This document shows positions 3,901 through 38,255 of a DNA stretch of 38,391 nt, piece by piece. The DNA is taken from assembly GCA_030592285.1 (NCBI GenBank), contig JAUVJU010000004.1, positions 1 through 38,391 of the forward strand, given 5' to 3'. The DNA comes from Caldifarciminota bacterium (GTDB taxonomy: Bacteria > Hydrothermota > 32-111). Position 1 is the first letter of the stretch. Every line of letters starts with the position of its first letter. Under the pieces are notes generated by a model. That model saw only the letters and a program-made list of their open reading frames with translations. It was not told where the DNA came from and made no database searches. Made by a program: the position numbers and the translations under genes.

Positions 3901-4272
3901 TTAGTTTATTTGACTGATAAATTCATGTATTCTTTCACTATCTTCTTTTTCCTTTTTCCCTTTATAATATATTTCAATGAAACATATCTCGTTCTTATCT
4001 TTAAAAAGTGCATATATAATCCTTATCCCTGATCTTACTCCTTTTCCTTTCATTGATTTGCATGCGAATTTTTTTAATTTGTAAATATCAACAATTTTAT
4101 TTTTATACCCTTTTAATTGAAAGCAAGATTTATTATCGGTACATTTAATATGTAATAATTCTATTGCATTTTTCTTTGCATTTTCAAAATCCTCATCTAG
4201 AGTTCTGTACTTTTTGAAAAGCATTTTAAATTCCTTTGTGAATTTCTCTGTCTCAACATATTTAATCTCCAT
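3901..4272 (-). CDS. RelE/ParE-superfamily-like toxin of a TA pair
   Basis: 123 aa; 'KFTKEFKMLFKKYRTL...KGKGVRSGIRIIYALFKDKNEICFIEIYYKGKKE' fits RelE-fold toxins; overlaps the preceding Panacea-type gene by 11 bp. Confidence 0.72.
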   Translation of the reverse strand: MEIKYVETEKFTKEFKMLFKKYRTLDEDFENAKKNAIELLHIKCTDNKSCFQLKGYKNKIVDIYKLKKFACKSMKGKGVRSGIRIIYALFKDKNEICFIEIYYKGKKEKEDSERIHEFISQIN

Positions 4273-5029
4273 ATTCCCTTACGGATGTTTCATTTGTTCT
4301 ATAGAAAACAGATTCATATTCAATTCTTTTGCCCTCATCTGCTGTAATCCATGGTACATCCCTGTGAGAATATACTGACAATTCATCTGCATTTTTGTCG
4401 GATAAACGGTTCAATATCTCATTTATATGCTCTAATTCCCTTGCATTAATTATGGAGAGATTGGGTTCTTTCGTTGGAAGGTACTTTTTTTGATCATAGG
4501 AAAAATGCTTGTTTTCTACAATGCAAATCTCATCATCACTCTCCATTTGTTCAATAACCTTCATAAATTCAATAGGCGTGGGTCCATAGAGATTTTTAAT
4601 GTAAGTTAAACCCATAATCTGTTCTTCATATTTTTCATAATAATCAAAATCAATGAAATATAATAATTTATAAATAACTGTTTCTCCAACATTCGGTTTC
4701 CCACCTACTTTTTTTAATATATACAATAATATTTGTTTGAACTTATCTATTTTTTTCTGAGGGATACTAATACGCATTTCATTCTTTTTATAATTTACAT
4801 TATTTTTGGAATTAATCTCAATTTCATATTTCTCAATCTTTCCATGAAGAAATGATTCTACCAGAATGTTATAATAATTAGCAAGGTTTTTTGCCTGTTC
4901 AATGGTTAAACTCTTTTTCCCATTTTCAATGTTTCTATATGAAGGCCGTGATATTCCAAGATAATCACTTATTTCTTTTTGAGAAGAATTCTTCTTTTCT
5001 CTCAATAATTTTATAATACTGTTATCCAT
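4262..5029 (-). CDS. XRE-type HTH + Panacea (SocA-like/DUF4065) antitoxin
   Basis: N-terminal HTH 'LREKKNSSQKEISDYLGISRPSYRNIENGKKSLT'; C-terminal 'ILLYILKKVGGKPNVGETVIYKLLYFIDFDYYEKYEEQIMGLTYIKNLYGPTP' is the Panacea/DUF4065 signature. Confidence 0.85.
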   Translation of the reverse strand: MDNSIIKLLREKKNSSQKEISDYLGISRPSYRNIENGKKSLTIEQAKNLANYYNILVESFLHGKIEKYEIEINSKNNVNYKKNEMRISIPQKKIDKFKQILLYILKKVGGKPNVGETVIYKLLYFIDFDYYEKYEEQIMGLTYIKNLYGPTPIEFMKVIEQMESDDEICIVENKHFSYDQKKYLPTKEPNLSIINARELEHINEILNRLSDKNADELSVYSHRDVPWITADEGKRIEYESVFYRTNETSVREYGD

Positions 5030-22507: not shown

Positions 22508-23116
22508 TTAGTTTCTTAGGGAAAAATTCACAGGAAATGTTACATATGCTCTTACTGCAATATCTCTTGACATTGCTGGTGTAAAAGTCATTTGATATGC
22601 GGCATTCACTGCTGACGCATCAAGCAGAGGATGTACACTTTTAATCACTTTTACAAGAGAAACGGAACCATCTTTTTCAACAACCAATTCAAGAAATACC
22701 GTTCCTTCAATTCCCAATTGTCTTGCTGCATCAGGATATTTAGGATCAAGCTTAACTAACACCTTTGGTGCATTTTCATAAATTCTATAGATCTCTCCTT
22801 TATGTTCAGTAAGAGATGGATCTTCAAAGGTTGTTTCAAATTCAATATCTTCAGTGATTTCAGAATCATCTGTTGTTTCCTTGATCTTCTTTGGTAATTT
22901 TGGTTTCTCAATGTTTTTGGGTTCCTTTGGCTGATTCAACATTTCATCTGGTAATTTCTCCATAATTGTTTCAGATGTTTTAGCTCTCATCCTATAAGGA
23001 TTAGGATTAAATCTCGGTACAACCTGAAATAGGATAATAAACAGAATTAATGTTGATAATATAGATGTTTTTAATAATGTCGGATACTTTTTCTTCACAT
23101 TATTTGTCTTTTCCAT
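22508..23116 (-). CDS. TonB family protein (energy transducer)
   Basis: N-terminal TM, Pro/Lys/Glu-rich linker, C-terminal 'KYPDAARQLGIEGTVFLELVVEKDGSVSLVKVIKSVHPLLDASAVNAAYQMTFTPA'. Confidence 0.93.
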   Translation of the reverse strand: MEKTNNVKKKYPTLLKTSILSTLILFIILFQVVPRFNPNPYRMRAKTSETIMEKLPDEMLNQPKEPKNIEKPKLPKKIKETTDDSEITEDIEFETTFEDPSLTEHKGEIYRIYENAPKVLVKLDPKYPDAARQLGIEGTVFLELVVEKDGSVSLVKVIKSVHPLLDASAVNAAYQMTFTPAMSRDIAVRAYVTFPVNFSLRN

Positions 23117-23125
23117 AATTCACCT

Positions 23126-23548
23126 CTATTTTATATCACTAATTACTCGAGCTGCCAATGAAACTCGTAAAGTATTAGCTTTAATTAATTGACCGAAAAT
23201 ATCATTGGATATCCAGTATGGCGTATCTTTATCTGCCATTATAGAAACAATTACATTAGGATTAATTCGCTTTTTAAGCTGCATAATATCCTTAACCTTT
23301 CCAATAGGAACAATCCTGTCATCAATACTAACAACACCATTATCACCTTTATATCCAACCCAGATATGTGCAATATGCTTGATTGATATTTTCTTTGCAG
23401 CCATTGCCTCAGGCAGTTCAACTTTAAGCCCCTGTTCTGCTTTAAACACAGTTGAGACCATAAAAAATATAAGAAGCAAAAATACAATATCAGATACAGA
23501 CGCTGTATTTATTTCTGCTTTTTCTTTTTCTATTCTTTCAAATTTCAT
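23126..23548 (-). CDS. ExbD/TolR family protein (second copy)
   Basis: 'AEINTASVSDIVFLLLIFFMVSTVFKAEQGLKVELPEA'. Confidence 0.93.
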   Translation of the reverse strand: MKFERIEKEKAEINTASVSDIVFLLLIFFMVSTVFKAEQGLKVELPEAMAAKKISIKHIAHIWVGYKGDNGVVSIDDRIVPIGKVKDIMQLKKRINPNVIVSIMADKDTPYWISNDIFGQLIKANTLRVSLAARVISDIK

Positions 23549-23556
23549 TGCTACTC

Positions 23557-24015
23557 CTAATCTTCATCATCTTCTGCAGGAGACAGAGATATTCTTTCTG
23601 TTCTTCCGGTTTTTTCAAAAGCAATTTTCAATTGGTCAAACACCCTTATCATGTATTCGTATTTGGCAAGTCGTGTTGGTATAATAGAGAAAATCAATTT
23701 TTCCTCAATATCCATTTCCAGTATTTCTATTGTTTTATCGGATACATTTCTCCACTCTACAGGTTCAGTAATTTCAGTGCCATCAGCAAAATATGATATT
23801 TTTACATTGCCAAATTTATCAATACGAACTTTGACTATTGTTTCACTTTTAACCTTGATCTCTTCTTTCGAATCTTCAGGCAGAACAATCTGAAGTCCCA
23901 TTTCATTGTTAAATACGGTTGTTACCATAAAAAAGATGAGAAGAAGAAATACAATATCTCCCATAGATGCAGTGGGAATGTCAACACTAAATTTTCTTTT
24001 CTTTTTAAACATCAT
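23557..24015 (-). CDS. ExbD/TolR family protein (first copy)
   Basis: 'FSVDIPTASMGDIVFLLLIFFMVTTVFNNEMGLQIVLPED'. Confidence 0.93.
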   Translation of the reverse strand: MMFKKKRKFSVDIPTASMGDIVFLLLIFFMVTTVFNNEMGLQIVLPEDSKEEIKVKSETIVKVRIDKFGNVKISYFADGTEITEPVEWRNVSDKTIEILEMDIEEKLIFSIIPTRLAKYEYMIRVFDQLKIAFEKTGRTERISLSPAEDDED

Positions 24016-24032
24016 TTTATTACTCCAAATTT

Positions 24033-24659
24033 CTATTCTTCAACAACTTCCATCTGTAAAAGTAGATCAACAATTCTATTTGATGCATCTTCCATTGCTC
24101 TGGTGTAATTATTAATCACTTCACTAAATACAACATGTGCTGCTGATGTAGGGATTGCTATTGAAAGACCTGTCATAGTAGTTATAAGTGCCTGTGATAT
24201 ACCACTTGCTACAAGTTTGGGTTCTACTGTACCAGCTAAGGCAATTGAATCAAATGCTGCTACCATTCCTGAGACTGTGCCTAGGAATCCTAACATAGGT
24301 GCAAGCTGAGTTACGGCTGCCAGTGGTGCCATTCCTCTATCAAGAAAGGCAAGTTCCTTAACTCCTGTTTTTGCAATTGCTTCTTCAAGAAGATCCTTGT
24401 TTTTCCCAATATATTGAAATTCCGTAAGCACTGCTTCCATTATTCTTCCTACAGGACTTGGGTTTTTAGAACAATATTCAACTGCATGTTCAACCCCTTC
24501 TGCTTCAATAACATTTTGAAGCTTTTCAATAAATTTTTGCGGACTTTTATTCATTATTAGGAATGTAATTATTCTCTCAATAATAAATACAACAGAAATT
24601 AGAGCTGTTGCTAGCAGGAACCACATTGTCCAGCCACCTCTTTGGAAAAAATCTAACAC
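24033..24659 (-). CDS. MotA/TolQ/ExbB proton channel family protein
   Basis: 'MAPLAAVTQLAPMLGFLGTVSGMVAAFDSIAL....VASGISQALITTMTGLSIAIPTSAAH'. Confidence 0.95.
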   Translation of the reverse strand: MLDFFQRGGWTMWFLLATALISVVFIIERIITFLIMNKSPQKFIEKLQNVIEAEGVEHAVEYCSKNPSPVGRIMEAVLTEFQYIGKNKDLLEEAIAKTGVKELAFLDRGMAPLAAVTQLAPMLGFLGTVSGMVAAFDSIALAGTVEPKLVASGISQALITTMTGLSIAIPTSAAHVVFSEVINNYTRAMEDASNRIVDLLLQMEVVEE

Positions 24660-24749
24660 ATTTTCCTCCTGTTTTAGATTATTAATGTCTTATTTTGTCA
24701 ATTTAACACTTGATATTATATTCAAATAGGACATAAATGTCAATACATA

Positions 24750-25100
24750 TTAAGTGCTTGTCCAACGGAAATAAATCAAAGATGCAACTATAGCAAAAAT
24801 TCCAGCAAGAAGGATCATACATGCTTCTAATGTACCTACCTGCATTGTTTTCGCAATTAAAGGCAATAGATCATATGGTGTACTTGCTGCAAGAGCTGGA
24901 AAATATACTGTCAATTTGATGATGTGTACTATTGATCCAATCAACATAAATAGAGTTCCAATCATTAATAGGATCCAAATACCTTTTCGTCTGATCATTT
25001 TAAGCAATCTCTTAATAATTAAACCAGAGAAAAACAATGATGCTGCAAAAAGAATAATTCCAATTGTTAAAAGAATTTCAGCTGTAAATAGAATTCTCAT
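24750..25100 (-). CDS. Small multi-pass membrane protein (about 4 TM), unknown
   Basis: 116 aa, highly hydrophobic, start overlaps the end of the neighbouring gene by 4 nt. Confidence 0.7.
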   Translation of the reverse strand: MRILFTAEILLTIGIILFAASLFFSGLIIKRLLKMIRRKGIWILLMIGTLFMLIGSIVHIIKLTVYFPALAASTPYDLLPLIAKTMQVGTLEACMILLAGIFAIVASLIYFRWTST

Positions 25101-25501
25101 TTGGAACCCCCTTTATGAGGTTTCACAACATTGTAAAATTTATATGAGCCTATTAGGGATAGCAGCCCTGATAAAACAAAGAATCCATAGCTTATCCATG
25201 TTTGCATATCTGTCATTTTCAGATTGCCGATCACCATAAGACTGTATGCCTGAATAATTGCATAGAGAAGAATCCCAGATGGTGCAATCATTATAAACTG
25301 CCAATTTGTTTTTTTCATCAGAACCTGTTCATATCTTTTCGCTATAATCCCAATAAATACAAGTGCAAGCCAAAGGATTATTGCTCCTGCAACTGTTAAC
25401 ATTGCCGATATCATTTTCCAATTAAGAACATATTGTGGAATACCGGTTTGATTAACAATTTGTGAAAGTATTATTAATTTCATCATACTTCCTCCATTCA
25501 C
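25097..25501 (-). CDS. Small multi-pass membrane protein (about 4 TM), unknown
   Basis: 134 aa, hydrophobic; overlaps both neighbours by 4 nt (translational coupling). Confidence 0.7.
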   Translation of the reverse strand: MNGGSMMKLIILSQIVNQTGIPQYVLNWKMISAMLTVAGAIILWLALVFIGIIAKRYEQVLMKKTNWQFIMIAPSGILLYAIIQAYSLMVIGNLKMTDMQTWISYGFFVLSGLLSLIGSYKFYNVVKPHKGGSK

Positions 25502-26172
25502 TCGGTTATTTTTACATTAATTTTTTCTATCATTTCTTTCGCATGCGATGGACCTATTATTAATGATGATGATTTAGATAATTTCTTAATAAATAGTTCC
25601 ACTGCTTTATTTGTTAAATTCTTAACATCTATTTTAGATTCCCTAACCATATTATTCACAATATCATCTGTGAAGTCCTCCAAATACTCTTTTGCTATTG
25701 ATTTTACTGTATCAATTATCCCTACATCCAGTTTATAATTTTTCGCGGCTTTCTCTGCTGATGGTTTTTCTTCTATTTTCTGCTCTTTTTTTATTTCATC
25801 CTTTTCCCGAACAAAACCACCCTTTACTGCAATTTTCTTTCTTTCTTTTATCTTTAACTTACCTTTATCACGTTTTCCCTGCGATTTTGCTCCTTTAATG
25901 ACAATCCCTTTTACACTGTTCTGTGTTAAAATTCCATATATATCATTATCATTAAATACAAAAGTGATCTTTTGATTTTCTGTATAAAAAGCAATATTCT
26001 CAATATCTTGTATTTCAGCTGTCTCCAAAGATTGTTTTAATACAACTACTGATTTTTTTATTGCATCATTATCTGCCTTAATATCACCGCTTTTTTCAAC
26101 TATTTCACCAGAATTACAAAAAACATAATCAGCAGAGTATTGTTCTCTCAATTTATCAAGATTTTCTCCCAT
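25498..26172 (-). CDS. Hypothetical, possible Roadblock/LC7-like N-terminal domain plus charged linker and helical C-terminus
   Basis: 'YVFCNSGEIVEKSGDIKADNDAIKKSVVVLKQSLETAEIQDIENIAFYTENQKITFVF' has Roadblock-like layout; Lys/Glu-rich linker. Confidence 0.5.
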   Translation of the reverse strand: MGENLDKLREQYSADYVFCNSGEIVEKSGDIKADNDAIKKSVVVLKQSLETAEIQDIENIAFYTENQKITFVFNDNDIYGILTQNSVKGIVIKGAKSQGKRDKGKLKIKERKKIAVKGGFVREKDEIKKEQKIEEKPSAEKAAKNYKLDVGIIDTVKSIAKEYLEDFTDDIVNNMVRESKIDVKNLTNKAVELFIKKLSKSSSLIIGPSHAKEMIEKINVKITE

Positions 26173-26179
26173 TACTAAC

Positions 26180-26938
26180 CTACCTCTTATTGAGTTTTAA
26201 AATTACATTCTGGACTTTCTGCTTTGCATCCTTTGCTCCGAATTCTTTTACTGCAAGTTTACACAATGTATCAATTATTTCTTTGGAGTCCTTTTGGATA
26301 TCTTCTTTACTTATAGCCACTGGAACTGTACTTTTCAATTTGATATCATCTGCAATATCAAGAGCAAGTGTGATCTTTTCCATATTCCTTATACCCTCTT
26401 TAACTACATTGACCCATTTTGTTTTTTCTCCGCCAATAGCAAATTCATTGATCAGAAAATTAATTTGTGCTATTTTAGCATTGAACAATTTTCTTTCTAT
26501 TTCGGATAATTTATCTTCATCTTCAATTGCATTAGCAGCATTAAGTAAGTCTCCCATGTCCGATCCGGCTGCAATCTCATCTGGTACTTCGGATGGCTCA
26601 TCCTTGGGAATAACAACCTCTTTTGTTAATTCAAGGAATTTATTATAAAAATTCTGTTCATCTTGTTCCTCAGAAAAAATAAATGCCAAAAAGTCATTTT
26701 CTCTATTAAAGATTATAATATTATCTTTTGATTTAATACTAATTAATTTCATATTAGTTAATGAAAGTTTTTTAAATATGATTTCTCCTGCTGAGCCGAG
26801 AAAAGCACCCGCATCATTAAGAAGTTGATTTTTATTTCCCCATGTTTCCATCACATCTCCATCTTCCTTATTTAGAAGAACAGCAGATTTTACTGGAAAC
26901 TCCTTTTTAAGATTTTCAGCTATTTTAACAAATTCCAT
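26180..26938 (-). CDS. Hypothetical, possible Roadblock/LC7-like N-terminal domain
   Basis: 'FPVKSAVLLNKEDGDVMETWGNKNQLLNDAGAFLGSAGEIIFKKLSLTNMKLISIKSKDNIIIFNRENDFLAFIF' has Roadblock-like layout. Confidence 0.5.
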   Translation of the reverse strand: MEFVKIAENLKKEFPVKSAVLLNKEDGDVMETWGNKNQLLNDAGAFLGSAGEIIFKKLSLTNMKLISIKSKDNIIIFNRENDFLAFIFSEEQDEQNFYNKFLELTKEVVIPKDEPSEVPDEIAAGSDMGDLLNAANAIEDEDKLSEIERKLFNAKIAQINFLINEFAIGGEKTKWVNVVKEGIRNMEKITLALDIADDIKLKSTVPVAISKEDIQKDSKEIIDTLCKLAVKEFGAKDAKQKVQNVILKLNKR

Positions 26939-26941
26939 CTA

Positions 26942-27805
26942 TTACCTCTCTTCTCTTGACAATAATTCTTTATGCTTCTTTTTTGCAAGCATTTTACCCA
27001 ATTCCTCATTTGCTCTTTCATTGGACTTTTTATAAAGCATATCTTTTGTTTTTGAATAATATTCTTCTGTTAATATTTTTGTAATTGATTCATCAGAATC
27101 AATCTTTTCATTATTTAATTTTATCATACCTGAGATTGTTTCAAAGCCCTCTAAATTAAGAGAACTAATTATATAGGAAAACCACTCATTTGTATTTGTT
27201 CCTTTAACACTATAAACATCCATTATATTATTAAGCATTTTTTCAAAATTCTGTCTTAATCTTTCTGATTTTGACTTATCAAACAGCAAACCCTTTTCAA
27301 TAAGCCACTCTAATGTCTGACAAACCACTAAAATTGGCAGATTCGAATCATGTATCAATTTATTTATATCTCGTTTACCATCTATTAAACGGATCATTGT
27401 CCAATCGGATTTTCTTAATGCCACATTATCCTGTACACCATCAGCTCGTTTTTCTAATATTGCAGTAAATGGAGGTAACTTTGTCAAAAGATCATCAAAT
27501 TCAATTCTTCTTTTTTCAATATTATGAATTAATTCTAATGTCTCATTTTTCTTAATTGTGTGTTCCTTAATTGCAATTTTGTCTTTATACTGTAAACTGC
27601 CTTTCTTTTCAATAGCAACATTATATATTGCTTCTATTCCTATAAGACCCTTAAATTCTGCATGTACAGGAATACCCTCTTCAAAATATATTTCAGAATT
27701 TTCACCTGCAATATCCAGATATAAAGCACCTGTCCTTTTAGAAGATGAAACCAAATTAATGATCTCTAAAGGACTAAATACTTCCAGATTTGCCGATAGG
27801 TCCAT
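26942..27805 (-). CDS. PATAN/DUF4388 domain protein
   Basis: 'SANLEVFSPLEIINLVSSSKRTGALYLDIAGENSEIYFEEGIPVHAEFKGLIGIEAIYNVAIEKKGSLQY' is the DUF4388 signature. Confidence 0.83.
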   Translation of the reverse strand: MDLSANLEVFSPLEIINLVSSSKRTGALYLDIAGENSEIYFEEGIPVHAEFKGLIGIEAIYNVAIEKKGSLQYKDKIAIKEHTIKKNETLELIHNIEKRRIEFDDLLTKLPPFTAILEKRADGVQDNVALRKSDWTMIRLIDGKRDINKLIHDSNLPILVVCQTLEWLIEKGLLFDKSKSERLRQNFEKMLNNIMDVYSVKGTNTNEWFSYIISSLNLEGFETISGMIKLNNEKIDSDESITKILTEEYYSKTKDMLYKKSNERANEELGKMLAKKKHKELLSREER

Positions 27806-27806
27806 G

Positions 27807-28571
27807 TTATCTCCTCTTTACCCATTGTTCATCACAATATTTATCTACCATTTTTCTATACTCAGCATTATCTAACTTAAATGACAATTCTTCCCAATCA
27901 TAACTTAGAAAGTTAAAGAATGATTTATAAAAATTTTCACTTAAGACCTTTATATTATACACTATTTTGTTAATATTTTCAATATTGCTTATATGCATTT
28001 TCGCTGAAAAAACATTATCAAGGTTTTCACTATAATTATTCACTAATATTGTTCCCTGCTGCATAAATCTGTCTTTTAGGAATGTCTGTGCACTGCCAAG
28101 TATTTTTTCTCCATTTAATGTGATCTCATATAATGATGTTGAACTAAAACAATTCTCCGTATATGGAGTATCAGTTTTATTTGAATTAACCTCAACATCT
28201 ATTCCTGCATATTTGAATCCATGTACAAATGCATCCGACAGTAATCTATACCTCTTAGTAAGATTATTACTATTATTAATTAAAATGTTCTTAAATGCAT
28301 TATATGTTGATGAAAAGGAATAGGTCAGATCACCGCTATGAAGCACTGTTCTACCACCTGTTATTCTTCTTGTAATAGGAATATTTTCATTCTCAACAAA
28401 TTCAGTATTACAGCTCCTTATATATCTTTGATTGTATCCAATTGTTATGGATGGTTCTTTAAATACATAAAATCTGAATATTGGCTCTTCAATATGAATA
28501 TATAAATATTCATCAAGAGCCATATTCTCAAAAACATTTAGATCCATAAACTTCATATAATATGCTTTCAT
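27807..28571 (-). CDS. Lipoate-protein ligase A family protein (track start 28601; Met at 28571 avoids overlap)
   Basis: 'FMDLNVFENMALDEYLY', 'FRFYVFKEPSITIGYNQ', 'PITRRITGGRTVLHSGDLTYSF', 'GEKILGSAQTFLKDRFMQQGTILVN' of the BPL/LplA/LipB fold. Confidence 0.88.
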   Translation of the reverse strand: MKAYYMKFMDLNVFENMALDEYLYIHIEEPIFRFYVFKEPSITIGYNQRYIRSCNTEFVENENIPITRRITGGRTVLHSGDLTYSFSSTYNAFKNILINNSNNLTKRYRLLSDAFVHGFKYAGIDVEVNSNKTDTPYTENCFSSTSLYEITLNGEKILGSAQTFLKDRFMQQGTILVNNYSENLDNVFSAKMHISNIENINKIVYNIKVLSENFYKSFFNFLSYDWEELSFKLDNAEYRKMVDKYCDEQWVKRR

Positions 28572-28576
28572 TAATA

Positions 28577-29194
28577 TTAACCAAATATTGGTATTATCCA
28601 ATCATAAATTAAAAAGTAGAATCTTCCAATAAGCAGCGATATTCTAGCCATTACTGTATATCCAAATGATGCTCCAAAAGCAATCATTATAAATGTTATT
28701 CCAATTCTAGATGTCCATCCAAGTATACCTTTATGCTCTTTGGAAAAATAGAAATATAGAAGTGTTGTAATAACACCAACAATAATGATTAGATTATTTA
28801 ATGATGTTATATTGAATCCTGTTATAGGCAGTATTGTTGCCTGTATCTGGGGAATCAAAAAACCCTGAATATATCCTGTAACTCCCAATCCTGCTCCTAT
28901 ACCTACCATAAAAGCAATTGACCATCTTGAAAGCCATGCAATTTTGGGAACCCATCTTGATAACATAATAAGTCCAAAAAATGCCGGAATTAACAAAACA
29001 AATTCTCCCCGATTTCGTATGGGTTCAATCAGCATTGGCTGAATAACATAAGCATAGGTATATATAAGCCAATATCCTGCCGAGATTCCAACATAAAATG
29101 ATTCTGCAAATTTATAGAATGGATTATCTTTATAAAGAAATGAATATATACACAGTGTTAATCCTGCTGCTATCCAAATACCAATAGTTATCAT
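28577..29194 (-). CDS. Cassette 2 protein D2: multi-pass membrane protein
   Basis: Paralog of the 31898-32503 product: 'YSFLYKDNPFYKF', 'IPIIVGVITTLLYFYFS.EHKGI.G..(S/T)R(I/V)GITFIMI.FGA.FG.T.MARISL.IGR' shared. Confidence 0.85.
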   Translation of the reverse strand: MITIGIWIAAGLTLCIYSFLYKDNPFYKFAESFYVGISAGYWLIYTYAYVIQPMLIEPIRNRGEFVLLIPAFFGLIMLSRWVPKIAWLSRWSIAFMVGIGAGLGVTGYIQGFLIPQIQATILPITGFNITSLNNLIIIVGVITTLLYFYFSKEHKGILGWTSRIGITFIMIAFGASFGYTVMARISLLIGRFYFLIYDWIIPIFG

Positions 29195-30033
29195 TTTATG
29201 CCTCCCTTTGCTTTGTTCTTTTTTCTCTTATCAACAAAATAGGCAATATTACCAAAAACTATAAATAGTATTATAAGCATATGTGCAAACGACTGTGCTG
29301 CCATTCCTGCAACAGCCATATCCGGTTTATCTACAAGTATTTCATATTCCGCTGCACCTTTCATACCCCCTACAAGCCCTTCAATTTGTCCTGATTGAAA
29401 AAAGAAATATGCATCGGGTGCTGAGACCGCAGTAAGAGCTAATACAATGCGCTGGTCAAATCTTGCTCCTGCATACTGAACCCATACCTGACCTGTAGCA
29501 CCTGCTTCAAGTCCTATAAGTAGATCAATATCATCATAATTATGAATATTGTTCATTACAGGATACTTTTCTATTAGATCACCTTTATAATCGGAATTAA
29601 AATATGTTCTTATCTCTCTTCCAATACCCACCATTTGTGCAACATAACCAGGTCTATATCCAAGATTTATATAATCAATACCATATTCCTTATTATATTC
29701 CGCAGCAATCTTTTCTAATGCCTGTGTACCAAGCGGAGCCCCTAATTGCCATTGAACAATTAAAATAGGATGAAAATCTTTCATAAAACAATGACTTAAT
29801 AGTGCTTCAAGATATGGCTGAAGTTCAGGCATAGATGCTGCATCATAATCAATGGATATCATCACATTGGCACCCTCTGGTAAATTATTAACTGCATCAT
29901 AAGCCTTTTGTACCGGTTCGCTAACTACAATAGGAAACTTAGGTTTAAAGATTAAAGGAATAATAACTACAATAGCAATTACTATAAATATAATTCTTCT
30001 ATCAATATTTGCTAATTTTTTTATAATATTCAT
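29191..30033 (-). CDS. Cassette 2 protein C2: N- and C-terminal TM with a large domain between
   Basis: Paralog of the 32505-33371 product: 'IDYDAASMPELQPYLEALLSHCF', 'GGMKGAAEYE', C-terminal 'AAQSFAHMLIILFIVFGNIAYF'. Confidence 0.85.
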   Translation of the reverse strand: MNIIKKLANIDRRIIFIVIAIVVIIPLIFKPKFPIVVSEPVQKAYDAVNNLPEGANVMISIDYDAASMPELQPYLEALLSHCFMKDFHPILIVQWQLGAPLGTQALEKIAAEYNKEYGIDYINLGYRPGYVAQMVGIGREIRTYFNSDYKGDLIEKYPVMNNIHNYDDIDLLIGLEAGATGQVWVQYAGARFDQRIVLALTAVSAPDAYFFFQSGQIEGLVGGMKGAAEYEILVDKPDMAVAGMAAQSFAHMLIILFIVFGNIAYFVDKRKKNKAKGGIK

Positions 30034-30042
30034 TTTGGCCCC

Positions 30043-30681
30043 TTATGAAAGATAACTTCTTTCAATACCTAAAATTATTCTCAGTGAAACACCAATTGCT
30101 CCAAGGGCAATACCAATAATAATACCTCTTTTGGCTGCCATTTGAGGAACCGACATTATCCATTCAGTAAAAATAGGAATTTTCGGTGATATCATTTCAG
30201 AAATTGGAACCCTTCCAAACATAACAATTATTGCAGTAATAAGTAATAGTGTTGCATCAAAATTCCTTGCTCTAAATGCTCTGTATGCTGCTGATGCAAT
30301 GAAAAATGCAAGAAGAGAGAACATTGTTGACTGCAGCGGTATTATCATATTGTCATACATATACATAAATCCAGAACCGGTTAAAAATGCATTGCCATAA
30401 CGAATTGTACTGATAATGCCAACAATCACAATTAGTAAAAACCCAAAAAGAAGAACAATGGAATAGGCCCAATGATTTTCTTTTCTCTTAATTTTATTTG
30501 TATGCAGCCGTAATAATGAATCAACACCAAGAAGCATTGTAAAGCCGGCAATAATAGAATACCATCTTAATGATATTTCTTCAAAACTGCCAAATGGTGC
30601 ATGTGGTATAAAGAATGCAATGATAATTATTGTTCCTGTTAAGAAACTGATTGCTAATGGAATGCCTTTACCTTTAATCAT
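30043..30681 (-). CDS. Cassette 2 protein B2: multi-pass membrane protein
   Basis: Paralog of the 33368-34045 product: 'TMFSLLAFFIASAAYRAFRARNFDATLLLITA', 'RGIIIGIALGAIGVSLRIILGIERSYL'. Confidence 0.85.
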   Translation of the reverse strand: MIKGKGIPLAISFLTGTIIIIAFFIPHAPFGSFEEISLRWYSIIAGFTMLLGVDSLLRLHTNKIKRKENHWAYSIVLLFGFLLIVIVGIISTIRYGNAFLTGSGFMYMYDNMIIPLQSTMFSLLAFFIASAAYRAFRARNFDATLLLITAIIVMFGRVPISEMISPKIPIFTEWIMSVPQMAAKRGIIIGIALGAIGVSLRIILGIERSYLS

Positions 30682-30690
30682 TGTTCCTCC

Positions 30691-31884
30691 TTAAATTATC
30701 CTTACAAGCCATTCAAACATATCAGTAAAGAATCCTATCTTAAAACCATGTCCCAATAATCCGAGAATAAATCCAATTATCAGAACAAAAACAATAATGA
30801 TCTTAATAAGATCTTCCGCAACAATAGAACCCAGCATTAATGGCTCCCTTTCAAGATAAACAGATGCAGCCATCATTTCTTCACCAATAAGTGTATAATC
30901 GCAGGCAGCTACAAAGAAAGGTAATTGAGCTGTTTCTGTTGTGCCTGCAATCTGAATAGCACCAATAGAATAGCCTGTTTCAGCCAAAATAAGTGATTCT
31001 GCAAAAAAGAGTCCCTGTAAAAATATTGCACCTGGTTTTTCTCTCATCATCATTCCATCAACACCTGCGGCATATCCAAATTGATCCTGAGTTATATACA
31101 TTGTGTCTTCCTTTCTATATGCATCGGGTCTTCCTGCTTCTGTAAATGCTTCCTTCACAACCTCCTGAGCTGTTGTCATTACAACAGGGTCATAGGAAGG
31201 CACCATTATTCTTGTATCATATTCTGCTGCTTTTTTTGCAACCCTTCCAAGGATTGTAAGACCTGCAATTGTTGGAATATCAGTAACATACCCAATTCCA
31301 AGAAGATACATAATGGGTTTACCCATTTCAGTTGACCTCCCTACTGCCTCTTCAACAGCATCAAGTCCCGCAATCTTTCTTATATAAAATGATTTACCTT
31401 TTTTTGCCAAATATATAAACCAGGCAAATGCACCTGCAATAAGAAGAAGTACAATAAATGAATCAAATCGTTCCTTATTAAACCATTGTCCAATTGCCTT
31501 TACAGGCAATGAATTATCCGTTTTCTTAACAATATCATCCTTTTTGAATAAAGCATAATACATATAATTTGTCCCGCCATGCACCATATTATCAGTATGA
31601 ATACCCTTTTCAGGATTCATATCCAATGCAATAGCAGTATCACATTCACCATGAATTCTATGAATATCCATTAAGTATCCCTTTAAGGAATCATTAATGT
31701 CCCATTTAATTGTAATTGAAGTACCATCATCATTGGGAGTATCACATACATTTAAAACAATTCCACTATGCTGCATTTCAGTAATTGCAGTATCAATTAA
31801 AGCCACATTTGTAGAATCAATTAATTCCTGTGAAAATACAGAAATAGATATCATACATAAAAATAATAATAAATGCCGTTTCAC
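30691..31884 (-). CDS. Cassette 2 protein A2: signal peptide, Fn3-like N-terminus, TM, DUF6754-like domain
   Basis: 'DTPNDDGTSITIKWD' then 'AVGRSTEMGKPIMYLLGIG....GAIQIAGTTETAQLPFFVAACDYTLIGEEMMAASVYL'; paralog of the 34054-35307 product. Confidence 0.82.
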   Translation of the reverse strand: MKRHLLLFLCMISISVFSQELIDSTNVALIDTAITEMQHSGIVLNVCDTPNDDGTSITIKWDINDSLKGYLMDIHRIHGECDTAIALDMNPEKGIHTDNMVHGGTNYMYYALFKKDDIVKKTDNSLPVKAIGQWFNKERFDSFIVLLLIAGAFAWFIYLAKKGKSFYIRKIAGLDAVEEAVGRSTEMGKPIMYLLGIGYVTDIPTIAGLTILGRVAKKAAEYDTRIMVPSYDPVVMTTAQEVVKEAFTEAGRPDAYRKEDTMYITQDQFGYAAGVDGMMMREKPGAIFLQGLFFAESLILAETGYSIGAIQIAGTTETAQLPFFVAACDYTLIGEEMMAASVYLEREPLMLGSIVAEDLIKIIIVFVLIIGFILGLLGHGFKIGFFTDMFEWLVRII

Positions 31885-31897
31885 GGCACCTCCTTAT

Positions 31898-32503
31898 TTA
31901 AGAAATTATTCCAAGCCAATCACCCAAAAGGAATTGTATCCTTCCAATAAAAAGTGATATCCTTGCCATAATTGTTGCACCAAAAGCAGCACCAAAGCCA
32001 ATCATTATAAATGTTATGCCCACTCTTGTTACTTTGCCAATAATACCCTTATGCTCAACTGAGAAAAAGAAATATATTAGGGTTGATAAAACACCTATAA
32101 GAATAATGATATTACCAATGGTAAATACCTGAGGCATTGTGCCCTGAACCTGCTTAAATAGATTTTCAAATGATGATGGAATAGACATACCACAACCTGT
32201 TCCAACAACAAATGCAATAGGAATTCTTGATAAATATGCCTTGCCCTTGAATAATCGTGAAAACATCAATAATCCAAGAATAAGTGGTACTATAACAAGA
32301 AAATTATGGTCATGAACAAGGGGATTCCATACCTTTGCAATAATTGTATTATGAAAATAAATTGACACAGTATAGCCAATTGAAATACCCACTAAGATCT
32401 TTTCAGAAAATTTATAAAAGGGATTATCCTTGTATAAAAATGAATAAATGGATAGAGTAAGAAGTGCTGCTATCCATATCCAGATACTTGTTGATATAGC
32501 CAT
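31898..32503 (-). CDS. Cassette 1 protein D1: multi-pass membrane protein
   Basis: Paralog of D2 (28577-29194); 'VEHKGIIGKVTRVGITFIMIGFGAAFGATIMARISLFIGR'. Confidence 0.85.
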   Translation of the reverse strand: MAISTSIWIWIAALLTLSIYSFLYKDNPFYKFSEKILVGISIGYTVSIYFHNTIIAKVWNPLVHDHNFLVIVPLILGLLMFSRLFKGKAYLSRIPIAFVVGTGCGMSIPSSFENLFKQVQGTMPQVFTIGNIIILIGVLSTLIYFFFSVEHKGIIGKVTRVGITFIMIGFGAAFGATIMARISLFIGRIQFLLGDWLGIIS

Positions 32504-32504
32504 A

Positions 32505-33371
32505 TTACTTCTCCTTTTTCCGTTTTATGAAATAGATTATATTTCCAACAATAATAAAAATAATGTATGTAAGATGTCCCGATGATTGTGCATCCATACC
32601 AATAGATGCCTGATTTCTGTCTTGTGATACATTATTCTTGATTAATAATGCTTCATATTCTGCTGCACCCTTTAATCCGCCCAACATACCATTTGCCTGC
32701 CCTGAATTCAAATATGCATAATATTCTGCCATGCTAACAGCAGTTGTACCAATACCCATTTTCTGATTGTATCTGCCATTTGCATAAATGATCCATGAAA
32801 GAATAACAGAACTGCCTGCAAGATCAACCATATAATCAATATCATTATATGTATTAACCCCTGCCATAATAGGCAGAGAATCAAGATCATTACCATAGGC
32901 ATCTGTATTAAATGTACCTCTAATATCTTCACCCATTTTAAGAATTACCACACTAACTCCAGGAACAAATGCAAAAAGGGATATATCATTACCTAATATT
33001 TTAATATTATCAGGGTTTGATTTATTCCATTCTTCAAGTGTATTTGATATCATATCCTGAGCAAGTCCCACACCGGGAGGATATAGACCCATTAAAAATA
33101 CCCTTATATTTTTTGAAAAGCAATGAGTTATAAGTGCCTTACCCATTGGATGCAGTTCTGCCATTGTTGAAGGATCATAATCCACACTAACAAGCATTAC
33201 GCCGCCTTCAGGAATAGAATCATTAATATAATTATACATATTTGAAACAGGCGGGGTTATTTTCATTGGACAGCCAATAGGAAATAGAAATGGAAATATC
33301 ACTGCAATTGCAAGAACAAGATATATCCATCTTTTATCAATATGGTCAAGGTAATTAATAATCTTCATCAT
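32505..33371 (-). CDS. Cassette 1 protein C1
   Basis: Paralog of C2; 'SVDYDPSTMAELHPMGKALITHCFSK', 'GGLKGAAEYEALL', 'GMDAQSSGHLTYIIFIIVGNIIYF'. Confidence 0.85.
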   Translation of the reverse strand: MMKIINYLDHIDKRWIYLVLAIAVIFPFLFPIGCPMKITPPVSNMYNYINDSIPEGGVMLVSVDYDPSTMAELHPMGKALITHCFSKNIRVFLMGLYPPGVGLAQDMISNTLEEWNKSNPDNIKILGNDISLFAFVPGVSVVILKMGEDIRGTFNTDAYGNDLDSLPIMAGVNTYNDIDYMVDLAGSSVILSWIIYANGRYNQKMGIGTTAVSMAEYYAYLNSGQANGMLGGLKGAAEYEALLIKNNVSQDRNQASIGMDAQSSGHLTYIIFIIVGNIIYFIKRKKEK

Positions 33372-34045
33372 TTGCCACCTCCTAAATATCCTCTCTCAAT
33401 ACCAAGAATGATCTTTAATGATGTTGCAATCATACCCAAATTAACACCAATAAGAATGCCTCTCTGTGCCGCCATACTGGGATAATTTAATATCCATTCA
33501 ACAACCTCCGGCATATTTGCATAAAAAAACTGTCCAATTGGCACCCTGCCAATTGTTACAATACTTGCAGTTATTAAAAGCATTGTTGCATCAAAACTTC
33601 TTGCCCTAAATGCTCTAAATGCCGCTGATGCCATATAAAATGCAAGAAGAGAGAAAATGGTTGCCTGCATTGGTGTCTGAAAATAGATATACAAATACAT
33701 TAATGGCGTATCAGAACCCGGTTGAACATTTGGAAATATCTTCATTAATATATTTGTCGGAGCATAGGCACCGCCCAATATACCTACAAATACTGTAATT
33801 CCAAGAGCAGTCAACACTATAACTGATGATTGCCAATCGGTAACCTTTCTTCTTATCTTTGTTATATGCATTTGTACTGTTGACTGCACTGCTATGAGTA
33901 ATGTAAAAGCAGTAACAATCATCAGCCAATCCAATATGGTACTATATACATTTTTGGAAAATGGATGCGGTATAAAAAATTGTATGATCATCATAGTTCC
34001 CATGAACATAGCTACTAATAATGGTAATTGTTTTTTCAGAAACAT
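33368..34045 (-). CDS. Cassette 1 protein B1: multi-pass membrane protein
   Basis: Paralog of B2; 'TIFSLLAFYMASAAFRAFRARSFDATMLLITAS', 'RGILIGVNLGMIATSLKIILGIERGYL'. Confidence 0.85.
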   Translation of the reverse strand: MFLKKQLPLLVAMFMGTMMIIQFFIPHPFSKNVYSTILDWLMIVTAFTLLIAVQSTVQMHITKIRRKVTDWQSSVIVLTALGITVFVGILGGAYAPTNILMKIFPNVQPGSDTPLMYLYIYFQTPMQATIFSLLAFYMASAAFRAFRARSFDATMLLITASIVTIGRVPIGQFFYANMPEVVEWILNYPSMAAQRGILIGVNLGMIATSLKIILGIERGYLGGGK

Positions 34046-34053
34046 ATGTTCTC

Positions 34054-35307
34054 CTATGTATTAAATACAAATCTAATTACATTCATTATGCCATCAAAAA
34101 ATCCAATATCAGCATCTGTAAATAGATTTATAATTCCATTTGTTAAAAATACAGTTAAAAATAATATCATAAAACATATTATTATTGCTTTCATATAATC
34201 CTGTGCCTTAATACTGCCCATAAGTACGGGCTCATTTGACAGGTATGCACTTGCTGCATATAATTCCTCTCCAATTAGGGTATAATCACATGATGTGATA
34301 AAGAAAGGTAATTGCGTTACTGCATCTGTGCCTGCTATTTGTATTGCTCCAATTGTATTACCCATTTCGGCAAGAAGAAGTGATTCTGCATAGAACATTC
34401 CCAAAAGCAGGTTTGTTGCTGGTTTTTCTCTTACCATTATACCATTAACCGCTGCAGCATAACCAAATTGACTATCTGTTAGGAAAAATACATCATTATC
34501 ATCATAAGCATCCGGCTTCCCTGCTTCAGTAAATGCTTCCTTTACAATCTCCTTTGCAACAGTCATTACAATAGGGTCACGGTTTGGAACAATGATCCTT
34601 GATTCATATTCTGCAACCTTTTTGGCAACGGGACCTAATATATTTAATGATGCAATTGTTGCAATATCGGACATTGTTGATATCCCGGGTATATACAGAA
34701 TGGGTTTACCCATTTCAGTTGCCCTGCCCACTGCCTCATCAAGTGCATCAATACCTGCAAGCCGCCTGAGAAATAATTTCTTTCCTTTTCTTACTGTATG
34801 AACAAGCAGTACTATCATTAAAATATAAACAATAATCATTAATAAAAGAATGATCTTATCCTTTTTAAACCAATTGGGTGTTGTAGTAATTTCTTCAGTA
34901 TATACTCTTACTGTTGATATCTGAAAATCATTATTTACAGCAACAATATAATACTTATAGGCAATATTACGATACAACCCCTGATCAGTGTACTCTGTCT
35001 CATTAGTAATGAGTTCTTTAATGCGTCTTTCTTTGCCTGTTTCAACATTAATGCGGTACAATGAGTATGTACCATCAAATTCCTCTACATCCTTAATTTT
35101 TTCCCATCTTATTAACAATGCAGTGCCATCATCATTAGGAGCATCCTTAACTTCAATACTTTCTATACCGCAGTAATTGAATTCATCAATAATTAGATCA
35201 GATGAATCAGCAATTACCGGTATTAGAGTATTGTCAGTTTCTGCAAAGACAACAGACATTGTAATAAGAAATAAAAATAAGGTAATAAGCATCTTTTTCA
35301 TACACAC
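34054..35307 (-). CDS. Cassette 1 protein A1: signal peptide, Fn3-like N-terminus, TM, DUF6754-like domain
   Basis: 'DAPNDDGTALLIRWEKI' plus 'AVGRATEMGKPILYIPGIS...GAIQIAGTDAVTQLPFFITSCDYTLIGEELYAASAYL'. Confidence 0.82.
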   Translation of the reverse strand: MCMKKMLITLFLFLITMSVVFAETDNTLIPVIADSSDLIIDEFNYCGIESIEVKDAPNDDGTALLIRWEKIKDVEEFDGTYSLYRINVETGKERRIKELITNETEYTDQGLYRNIAYKYYIVAVNNDFQISTVRVYTEEITTTPNWFKKDKIILLLMIIVYILMIVLLVHTVRKGKKLFLRRLAGIDALDEAVGRATEMGKPILYIPGISTMSDIATIASLNILGPVAKKVAEYESRIIVPNRDPIVMTVAKEIVKEAFTEAGKPDAYDDNDVFFLTDSQFGYAAAVNGIMVREKPATNLLLGMFYAESLLLAEMGNTIGAIQIAGTDAVTQLPFFITSCDYTLIGEELYAASAYLSNEPVLMGSIKAQDYMKAIIICFMILFLTVFLTNGIINLFTDADIGFFDGIMNVIRFVFNT

Positions 35308-35310
35308 TCC

Positions 35311-36444
35311 TTATTCCTCAATTAATTCTACATTTGCTCTTGGCAATAATATCTTTCTTCCATCCGGAAATTCAACTTCTAAAACCCTAACCATTGCTTC
35401 TGTTTCAATCTTCTGAAGTGGAGATGGTAAAGCAGATACCTTACCAATATTTCCAAATTCCGGTTCTCTTATAATTCTTACAACTGATCCAATTCCCATT
35501 CCTTCATGCTCTTCTTCTGATACCATTCTTTGTCCAGTACTTTTTATTTCATCATCATGGGTAACAATCAGTTCAGGTCTCAGTACCCCTGCTCTAATCT
35601 GAGTGGCTCCATTAATGGATGCTATTTTCCCTTCATTATTCTTTAATATGTTAAATGTCTTTTTTGCCATTGCCATTTCCCCAAATCCCTCTGTAATAAT
35701 CAGTGTAATACCCTTTTCTTCATTACCTGTTATTGCTACACCAATCTCTTCATTGAGAAAGTCCTTAAGGTCTTTATCATCAATGCCGCCTACAATCACT
35801 CCAATAACACCTTTTTCCACACATTTATTAAGTACATCAGCAGTAATTATTGAACCGCCAACAATGATCTTGCCTATGAGTTCATCACTTATATCATCAA
35901 TTGTCATTGTATAATCAGGTGACTGTGCAACCATCTTAACAATACCCTTTGTTTCTCCGCCTATACCGAAAATTCCCTGAATAAATGTAGCAGGACTTTC
36001 AACAATAATACCTTCATTCTCAATAACCTCAACGCATACACCATTAATATAACCATCTACCTCAACAGGTAATGGCGGTTTTCTCATTGTCATCATTCCG
36101 GTTACTTCAGATAATGCCTCAATTGTTCCATCTATTGGTGATTTTATCTGTGTTTTGAATAAACCGAAAAAGCCCTTTGATTCCGCAATTATATCATCTT
36201 TCTTAACCTCTTTTCCTATTTCAATCTTTAAATAATCAAAAACCTCTTTTCCGCTAACTCCAAGTTTACCTGCAAAATTCAATCTTTCAACATCTCCGGG
36301 TAATTCAGTTCTTGCAATAATATCATCTGCCTTGATAACATCACCCTTTTTTGCAGAAACATCTCCTTTTAATGGGAGTCGCCTTTCTTTTCTTACTATT
36401 GTATTTTCAGTAACTTTAAGTCCCGGTGTATATGAATGTGCCAT
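35311..36444 (-). CDS. Barrel-sandwich (biotinyl/lipoyl-like) + KOW-like domain protein, unknown function
   Basis: N-terminal 'RKERRLPLKGDVSAKKGDVIKADDIIARTELPG' and '...TQIKSPIDGTIEALSEVTG' resemble barrel-sandwich hybrid folds; C-terminal 'GIGSVVRIIREPEFGNIGKVSALPSPLQKIETEAMVRVLEVEFPDGRKILLPRANVELIE' is KOW-like. Confidence 0.65.
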   Translation of the reverse strand: MAHSYTPGLKVTENTIVRKERRLPLKGDVSAKKGDVIKADDIIARTELPGDVERLNFAGKLGVSGKEVFDYLKIEIGKEVKKDDIIAESKGFFGLFKTQIKSPIDGTIEALSEVTGMMTMRKPPLPVEVDGYINGVCVEVIENEGIIVESPATFIQGIFGIGGETKGIVKMVAQSPDYTMTIDDISDELIGKIIVGGSIITADVLNKCVEKGVIGVIVGGIDDKDLKDFLNEEIGVAITGNEEKGITLIITEGFGEMAMAKKTFNILKNNEGKIASINGATQIRAGVLRPELIVTHDDEIKSTGQRMVSEEEHEGMGIGSVVRIIREPEFGNIGKVSALPSPLQKIETEAMVRVLEVEFPDGRKILLPRANVELIEE

Positions 36445-36455
36445 TTATGCCTCCA

Positions 36456-38255
36456 TTAATATTCTGGGTAAAGGTTTAAGGACTTATACCATCTTTTAAG
36501 ATTGGCTATTCTCTCACTATCATTTTCCGGTAAATTAAATGGTCTTCTACCTCTTGTATCAACAATCACTCCAACAAGCCCACCTTCAAGTTCAATTTCC
36601 ATTTCCTTACCTTTACCATTTCCAATATCAAGATTCTTTGCCGGTTTAAGTATTGCCCTTACTCTTTCACTACTCTTAATATCATCTAAAAATTCTATAT
36701 CGCCATAATTAAATGTATATACCTTTTCACCAATGGTTATTTTCAATGCTTCCTGTCCTGGTTTTCCCTTACCCATAGGTGCAATACACATTCCTAATTT
36801 TAAAAGACAGTCCTTGGAAAACACCTCTGCTGCTGCTGAATCATGAACAGTTGAAAGTACTCCTAATTGCGGCATCATAAATATGGAATCCACAGCAAGC
36901 ATTGTTATTCCTTCAGGCAAGAATGCATCAATTGCCATCATTGCCGCCTGTACTCTTCTTGGAGCATGTGATAACACTCCACCTGAACCCACAACAAGAT
37001 TTAATGTTTCCATATTAACAAGTGTTTCTCCTGAGGATGTCTGTTCAAATGCATCGGATATTGTTCTTTCTGTCTGAACACCCTTAAGTCCCACTGCCAT
37101 TGCTTTATGATGTTCAAGGGCAAGTCGTAATGCCTCCCTTGCAATTGCCTGTTCAATCTGTAATTCTTCAAGTGTTGAAGGTATTGTTGTTGGTCTTATC
37201 ATCTTATTTCTTATTCTATTTCTTAGATCCTTTTCATTTGTCTCAAATGGAACCCATCTTGTAATATTCTTTAATCCGGTTGCCTTAACAACATTGGATA
37301 CCGAATAGCTCATTCCAAGATTTGCTGACACCGTTCTGTTAAACGCCAATTGAAATACTGAAAATATATCTGTTGTGGCTCCGCCAATATCAACACCAAG
37401 TACTTCAATATTATCCCTTTTTGCAATTGTTTCAATTAATAATCCCACAGCACCCGGGGTTGGCATTATGGGCACATCGGTCATTTCCATTAATTTTTTA
37501 TATCCCGGTGCCTGTGCCATAACATGTTCCATAAATAGATCATGTATCTTATCCCTTGCAGGTAATAGATTTTCTGATTCCAGCGTTGGTCTAAGATTAT
37601 CTACAATATATAGATCCGTTTTATCATCAAGTGATTCCTTTACATTTTCTCTTGCATCCTTATTCCCTGCATAAATAATAGGTAAATTATAGGTTGAACC
37701 AAATCTTGGTTTTGGGTCCGCTGCTTCAATGATCTCAGCAAGCTGAACAACATGCTTTTTGGTTCCACCATCAGTGCCTCCTGAAAGAAGCACCATATCA
37801 GGTCTTAATGTTCTTATTCTTTTAATTCTTTCATGATCCATTCTCTTATCATTGGATGCAATAACATCCATCACAATAGCACCTGCTCCAAGAGCTGCTC
37901 TTGCAGCGGATTCCGCACTCATTCTATCAACAACACCTGCAACCATCATCTGAAGTCCGCCGCCTGCTGAGGATGTTGAAATATAAACATCAACTCCATC
38001 TTTATCAGTATTATTTTCTCGTTTTAATATTTTATCCCCATCAAGTATTATAACTTCAGAAAGTTCTTCAACTTCCTTTATTGCATTAAGTACACCTTTT
38101 GTTACATCTTCATAGGGTGCCTCAACCGTTGTTGGTGCCTCTCCCCTGACTATCAGCCGATATTCCCCTTCCCGTTTTTCAATAAGAATCGCTTTAGTGG
38201 TAGTACTGCCGCAATCCGTTGCAATAATGCGCAGAATATTATTCTTATCTTTCAT
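36456..38255 (-). CDS. GlmL/MutL-family (glutamate mutase activator-like) ASKHA ATPase
   Basis: 'IIATDCGSTTTKAILIEK', 'STSSAGGGLQMMVAGVV', 'VLLSGGTDGGTKKHVVQLAE', 'VLGVDIGGATTDIFSV', 'VVGSGGVLSHAPR' are typical of PF13941-type proteins. Confidence 0.9.
   Translation of the reverse strand: MKDKNNILRIIATDCGSTTTKAILIEKREGEYRLIVRGEAPTTVEAPYEDVTKGVLNAIKEVEELSEVIILDGDKILKRENNTDKDGVDVYISTSSAGGGLQMMVAGVVDRMSAESAARAALGAGAIVMDVIASNDKRMDHERIKRIRTLRPDMVLLSGGTDGGTKKHVVQLAEIIEAADPKPRFGSTYNLPIIYAGNKDARENVKESLDDKTDLYIVDNLRPTLESENLLPARDKIHDLFMEHVMAQAPGYKKLMEMTDVPIMPTPGAVGLLIETIAKRDNIEVLGVDIGGATTDIFSVFQLAFNRTVSANLGMSYSVSNVVKATGLKNITRWVPFETNEKDLRNRIRNKMIRPTTIPSTLEELQIEQAIAREALRLALEHHKAMAVGLKGVQTERTISDAFEQTSSGETLVNMETLNLVVGSGGVLSHAPRRVQAAMMAIDAFLPEGITMLAVDSIFMMPQLGVLSTVHDSAAAEVFSKDCLLKLGMCIAPMGKGKPGQEALKITIGEKVYTFNYGDIEFLDDIKSSERVRAILKPAKNLDIGNGKGKEMEIELEGGLVGVIVDTRGRRPFNLPENDSERIANLKRWYKSLNLYPEY

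Follow-up and report, generated by a model that had tools for sequence, protein, structure and literature searches.

Why would a bacterium keep, side by side, two complete and diverged sets of the same four genes for membrane proteins, and what might such genes build? This question is raised by contig JAUVJU010000004.1 of a Caldifarciminota bacterium (assembly GCA_030592285.1), which was analysed over its whole length of 38,391 bases (hereafter the window). Eight open reading frames (ORFs) on the minus strand at 28577-35307, spaced by -4 to +13 bases, encode A1, B1, C1, D1, A2, B2, C2 and D2 in that order. A first-pass annotation, made from the sequence alone, had read the ORFs at these positions as two gene sets of like order composed of diverged paralogous pairs, and BLASTP bears this out: A1/A2, B1/B2, C1/C2 and D1/D2 share 44, 45, 37 and 50% identity, respectively (E 1e-110 to 1e-50), and no similarity was found by BLASTP between proteins of different letters. 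The signatures that it had listed for each pair are real, being motifs conserved across the whole families.

Its further suggestion that A resembles DUF6754 (PF20539) is confirmed, as A1 (34054-35307) and A2 (30691-31884) scored 390 bits (E 5.5e-117) and 372 bits (E 2e-111) against a gathering cut-off of 27 bits, covering profile positions 2-246 and 3-249 of 257. Both are clear members of a Pfam family that itself has no assigned function. The fn3 domain ahead of DUF6754 is weak in single-sequence Pfam searches (E 0.0014 in A1) and clear by profile search and fold search. B1 (33368-34045) and D1 (31898-32503) are polytopic membrane proteins according to hydropathy, marked by a conserved ASAAxRAFRAR motif and a YSFLYKDNPFYKF motif, respectively; B and D were compared and showed no homology. 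C1 (32505-33371) is predicted to hold a Rossmann-like alpha/beta domain between two transmembrane (TM) helices. Their paralogues are B2 (30043-30681), C2 (29191-30033) and D2 (28577-29194). No family above cut-off was found for B, C or D in Pfam or NCBIfam, and a literature search, with subscription journals outside its reach, found no paper on DUF6754 or the gene cluster. The description of the system as uncharacterised stands.

Conservation of the cassette across bacteria

Over 500 relatives came out of a scan of public genomes. The 80 best of them belong to WOR-3/Stahlbacteria, TA06, Edwardsbacteria, Zixibacteria, Latescibacterota, Cloacimonadota, Poribacteria, Fermentibacteria, Eisenbacteria, Coatesbacteria and CSSED10-310; stray names such as Desulfuromonas among the relatives are probably binning errors. 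Whole-genome searches detected DUF6754 in 140 of 147 genomes of WOR-3, the phylum of the window, 77 of 79 Cloacimonadota, 40 of 40 Zixibacteria and 40 of 40 Poribacteria; the 14 well-known control genomes had no match. In WOR-3, C was found in 144 of the 147 genomes and K, a putative partner described below, in 139. Such near-universality in at least four phyla suggests that the cassette is important for the cell envelope. The number of A genes per genome is lowest at one, as in 38 of 40 Poribacteria, and reaches seven in several WOR-3, and WOR-3 families f12 and f13 have one A and one C in all 12 genomes. Cloacimonadota also have a second type of A of approximately 900-1150 residues, in which a long N-terminal region, about 700 residues in some, precedes DUF6754. 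DUF6754 proteins of 929-1151 residues occur in L177, L178, L179, L181 and L182 of this phylum, and the N-terminal region had no Pfam match in the one scanned (L177).

Gene order was conserved across phyla (approximately 80 loci): neighbouring pairs numbered 93 for A-B, 87 for B-C, 91 for C-D and 31 for D with a further A behind it. Among the 67 loci with complete cassettes, 49 have one cassette, 13 have two and five have three. Copy numbers of A and C correlated across 147 genomes (r 0.92) and were equal in 101 of them, and draft assemblies may explain part of the mismatches. Further, pairwise distances among the four gene families were correlated (r 0.73-0.84, with shuffles at or below 0.10), indicating that the cassette evolves as a block. 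We consider it very likely that ABCD is a conserved functional unit.

Evolutionary history of the two cassettes

Gene trees were built for A, B, C and D, and the first-pass annotation had named unrelated per-gene histories as what would speak against its reading. The four trees agree. In each, cassette 1 clusters with the first-position cassette of relatives from the same family, and cassette 2 likewise with their second-position cassette (support 99-100 for each); in no tree do the two groups form one clade. The concatenated tree places cassettes of other phyla between them, and the approximately unbiased (AU) test rejected joining them (p-AU 2e-6, a value weakened by the groups having been named after the tree was seen). 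A recent block duplication is thus ruled out by the gene trees and the AU test. The four genes share one history, and the duplication was no local block copy: the cassettes of the window are anciently diverged paralogues kept in an array. The same position-specific pattern was seen in the concatenated tree for Zixibacteria, with three positions.

Both copies have kept more than 90% of the family-invariant residues (81-82 of 85 in A, 37-38 of 39 in B, 26 of 28 in C and 40-41 of 41 in D). Compared with the relative L119, nonsynonymous divergence (dN) was 0.15-0.34, and synonymous divergence (dS) was 1.9-2.9 for three of the genes, the remaining five being saturated. Taken with the retained residues, these values indicate that both cassettes are under purifying selection, in agreement with the earlier remark that a complete second set had been retained.

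That remark had left two options, a hetero-oligomeric assembly or two parallel machines. In the former, both cassettes would build one complex in which A1/A2, B1/B2, C1/C2 and D1/D2 take pseudo-symmetric places, and preservation of the array speaks for this: three genera of the family to which the window belongs (the window and L117-L119) retain the tandem order, and three-cassette arrays of Zixibacteria keep position-specific clades. Nevertheless, we consider a hetero-oligomer decidedly improbable, as a single DUF6754 gene is present in 38 of 40 Poribacteria and in the twelve WOR-3 genomes of f12 and f13, and many other cassettes are scattered singly. One cassette evidently works alone in these genomes, so that a two-cassette hetero-complex is not needed, and the asymmetric double-cassette assembly proposed earlier finds no support in its obligate form. 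The option of two parallel machines fits our findings.

M and K as candidate partners of the cassette

Upstream of A1 on the same strand lie K (35311-36444) and M (36456-38255). K is a barrel-sandwich (lipoyl/RnfC_N-like) protein, as indicated by alignment and by weak matches to Biotin_lipoyl_2, RnfC_N and CarD/TRCF-RID, and is approximately 51% identical across phyla. M, 64-71% identical between phyla, matched the MutL family PF13941 over its full length and above cut-off (431 bits, E 5e-129, profile positions 1-450 of 450). It shares this membership with the MutL/GlmL accessory protein of B12-dependent mutases (PF13941, NF040745), but differs from GlmL in reaching only half of the curated cut-off of the equivalog NF040745 (239.8 against 475 bits), in being approximately 140 residues longer than the model, and in its linkage to a membrane cassette. 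All three ASKHA nucleotide-binding motifs, namely phosphate-1 (DCGSTTTK at 14), phosphate-2 (DIGGATTD at 289) and adenosine (GSGG at 423), are present in M and are invariant or nearly so across the aligned phyla.

M and/or K were present in 17 of 81 cassette loci, in most cases no more than 250 bases away from the cassette; Zixibacteria, Coatesbacteria, Eisenbacteria, Latescibacterota and Fermentibacterota are among the groups covered. As M and K are apparently single-copy in most genomes examined, chance would by our estimate predict roughly one such locus. In L182 (Cloacimonadota), an M-K fusion lies directly upstream of A-B-C-D, and M and K are also fused in a single frame in L059 (17780-20539). 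In addition, two genomes of genus g67 (G126 and G127, 94-95% complete) lack all of A, C, K and M and keep 3-4 ExbB genes, and the full set of four is present in G125 and G128, which represent its sister genera; this co-absence, which we attribute to one loss event, is strong though unrepeated evidence. Taken together, M and K are probably part of the ABCD system.

Several observations on M and K may be recorded here. Fused M-K proteins form a second type beside separate genes, with frames of approximately 920-1080 residues (1057 residues in L182) shown for L059, L182 and G204, and K-like matches in G057, G061 and G063 lie in frames as long as these. Two contigs labelled Zixibacteria (L098 and L110) carry M, K and several cassettes; in the tree, the cassettes of L110 cluster with those of L093 (Coatesbacteria), possibly through transfer or misbinning. 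A small protein of 110-132 residues, here called SS, immediately precedes M in several phyla (L117:14328-14657, L118:14108-14446, L119:1120-1452 and L086:6227-6622), with the motif TAPAxMFLExxKPL and, in the one scanned, no Pfam match. The window is the whole contig, and its end lies a short way beyond M on the upstream side; relatives within the family have a protein of 110-113 residues there, followed in L118 by a glycine dehydrogenase subunit.

K is weakly similar to the barrel-sandwich domains of RnfC and NqrA in Rnf/Nqr ion pumps, and fused M-K weakly matches NQRA_N; apart from these weak barrel-sandwich matches, no other subunit family of the Rnf/Nqr complex was found among A-D. Searches of Pfam and NCBIfam gave no ABC ATPase family match in A-D, K or M, and identity as a known anti-phage defence system was rejected on the lack of a PADLOC match for A1-D1, K and M.

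Predicted architecture and proposed mechanism

Structural models were obtained with AlphaFold2. The model of C (predicted local distance difference test, pLDDT, 97; predicted TM-score, pTM, 0.92) consists of an alpha/beta domain flanked by N- and C-terminal TM helices; its fold search gave generic Rossmann-like matches at low TM-score and no close fold in the PDB, and its sequence search gave no match of use. The model of A (pLDDT 88), together with conserved residues and TM cores, points to a signal peptide, fn3, a TM helix, the DUF6754 alpha/beta domain and a further TM helix. Foldseek matches to A were dominated by fn3, the query being the whole of A rather than the DUF6754 domain alone. 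For C, the DUF6754 domain, K and M, the searches turned up no solved relative of use. The signal peptide, the placement of TM segments and the distribution of positive charges suggest that fn3 and the C domain are periplasmic and DUF6754 cytosolic. The models of the DUF6754 and C domains show helices and strands in identical order. Homology between these domains found no backing in profile comparison, where their score of 17.3 was not above column-shuffled controls, which reach 22.0, and it is kept as a lead.

We propose that each A-B-C-D cassette would make a complete inner-membrane complex of its own. Its membrane core would consist of B and D, C would show its alpha/beta domain to the periplasm, and A would show one or more fn3 domains to the periplasm and its DUF6754 domain to the cytosol. 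M, probably an ATPase, would work through K on the cytosolic side to drive or switch the complex, which would most likely serve, in Gram-negative-type cells, to transport a substrate across the inner membrane and periplasm or to assemble something there. The complex may be co-expressed in WOR-3 with the ExbB-ExbD-TonB system of the cell, and the two cassettes would be long-diverged, parallel and specialised versions sharing one M-K pair. The analysis itself shows gene content and order, co-occurrence, co-loss, ancient divergence, motifs and predicted folds. We infer the topology, the physical complex, the co-expression, the use of ATP by M and the transport or assembly role alike, and assign a probability of roughly 40% to the proposal as a whole, i.e., an inner-membrane transport or envelope-assembly complex per cassette, served by M-K and present in parallel versions.

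Several points weigh against this proposal. No substrate, enzyme activity or solved homologue is known, and the physical complex is putative. G149 (Poribacteria) has ABCD without a K match, and G012, G189 and G204 carry M and K without A. In many cases the neighbours of the cassette are unrelated metabolic genes, and neither M nor K nor TonB is close by. The family of M is otherwise linked to B12 mutases, so that M could be metabolic and a mere neighbour.

The system may alternatively be an envelope scaffold with a structural or quality-control role and no transport, in which fn3 and the periplasmic C domain organise partners. The fn3 ectodomain, with approximately 700 residues ahead of DUF6754 in certain proteins of Cloacimonadota, would suit such a role, and near-universal presence fits a housekeeping function in the envelope. 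However, the invariant polar residues in DUF6754 and C are dense and enzyme-like, suggesting ligand binding or chemistry, and we consider a scaffold fairly unlikely. A bolder form of the transport or assembly proposal, to our mind distinctly unlikely, is a new class of envelope machine in which an ASKHA-fold M, through the barrel-sandwich K, powers a membrane complex with like-ordered alpha/beta domains on both sides, DUF6754 inside and C outside. If true, it would be, to our knowledge, the first membrane transporter driven by an ASKHA ATPase.

Downstream genes and the TonB link

The first-pass annotation had drawn its boundary too narrowly at 28577-35307, leaving out K and M upstream and a run of genes downstream. 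M, K, the eight cassette genes and the genes from LplA to TonB (22508-28601, all on the minus strand) form one co-directional cluster in the order M, K, A1-D1, A2-D2, LplA, a DUF4388 protein, a Roadblock-like protein, a third soluble protein, two small membrane proteins, ExbB, two ExbD-like proteins and TonB. LplA (27807-28601; PF21948, E 4e-30) is a lipoate protein ligase type and a recurrent neighbour of the cassette. The DUF4388 protein P1 (26942-27805; PF14332, E 2e-9) is followed by the Roadblock/LC7-like soluble P2 (26180-26938), one of whose seven family members matches PF03259 (E 7e-4), and by the soluble P3 (25498-26172), which has no assigned family and is conserved in L106, L107 and L117-L119. 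The small membrane proteins P4 (25097-25501) and P5 (24750-25100) were recognised by synteny. Next come ExbB/TolQ (24033-24659; PF01618, E 7e-25), the sole MotA_ExbB match in this genome, two ExbD-like ORFs (23557-24015 and 23126-23548) assigned by synteny with labelled ExbD pairs in L106, L107 and L158, and TonB (22508-23116; PF03544, E 1e-18). The P1-P2-P3 trio (25498-27805), between the cassette and the TonB operon, also occurs in L106, L107 and L086. Elsewhere in the window, at 3904-5029, a small ORF overlaps a helix-turn-helix (HTH)-type ORF, resembling a toxin-antitoxin pair.

The ExbB, the two ExbD-like proteins and TonB are ordinary members of this energy transduction system, and the cluster ExbB is the only one found in the window genome and two relatives. 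Similar runs were found in the WOR-3 loci L106 and L107 (ABCD-P1-P2-P3-P4-P5-ExbB-ExbD-ExbD-TonB) and in L158 (ABCD-LplA-ExbB-ExbD-ExbD-TonB-receptor). They speak for a rival reading, in which the cassette would be the inner-membrane permease for TonB-dependent uptake: a receptor would let a compound enter the periplasm, where the C domain would bind it, B and D would carry it inward and DUF6754 would receive it. Behind ABCD in L106, L107 and L158 come ExbB-ExbD-ExbD-TonB and a TonB-dependent receptor, and a Plug-domain receptor-like protein follows the cassette in L039. We nevertheless hold TonB-dependent uptake to be a doubtful candidate, because most cassettes are away from TonB genes and genus g67 has lost the system yet keeps ExbB. 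Known TonB systems have no counterpart of ABCD, M or K, and ExbB persists without them in g67. The TonB link is thus real in this lineage and not a defining part of the system.

In another explanation, glycine dehydrogenase, lipoate ligase, M and K would form a module of cofactor or amino-acid metabolism supplied by ABCD with a metabolite such as lipoate. A contiguous run of glycine dehydrogenase subunit, SS, M, K, ABCD and LplA is seen in L118, SS-M-K-ABCD-LplA also occurs in L117 and L119, and parts of it recur in L038. This is hard to reconcile with up to seven cassettes per genome and with other cassettes beside transketolase, dehydroquinate synthase and further unrelated genes, and we regard it as very improbable.

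Implications for uncultured lineages

The four-gene membrane complex proposed here and its ATPase-like pair are encoded in practically all sampled genomes of WOR-3, Cloacimonadota, Zixibacteria and Poribacteria. The gene set, the single-copy version of Poribacteria and the pattern of co-loss make the question of its function testable, and any function assigned would explain core biology of these largely uncultured lineages.

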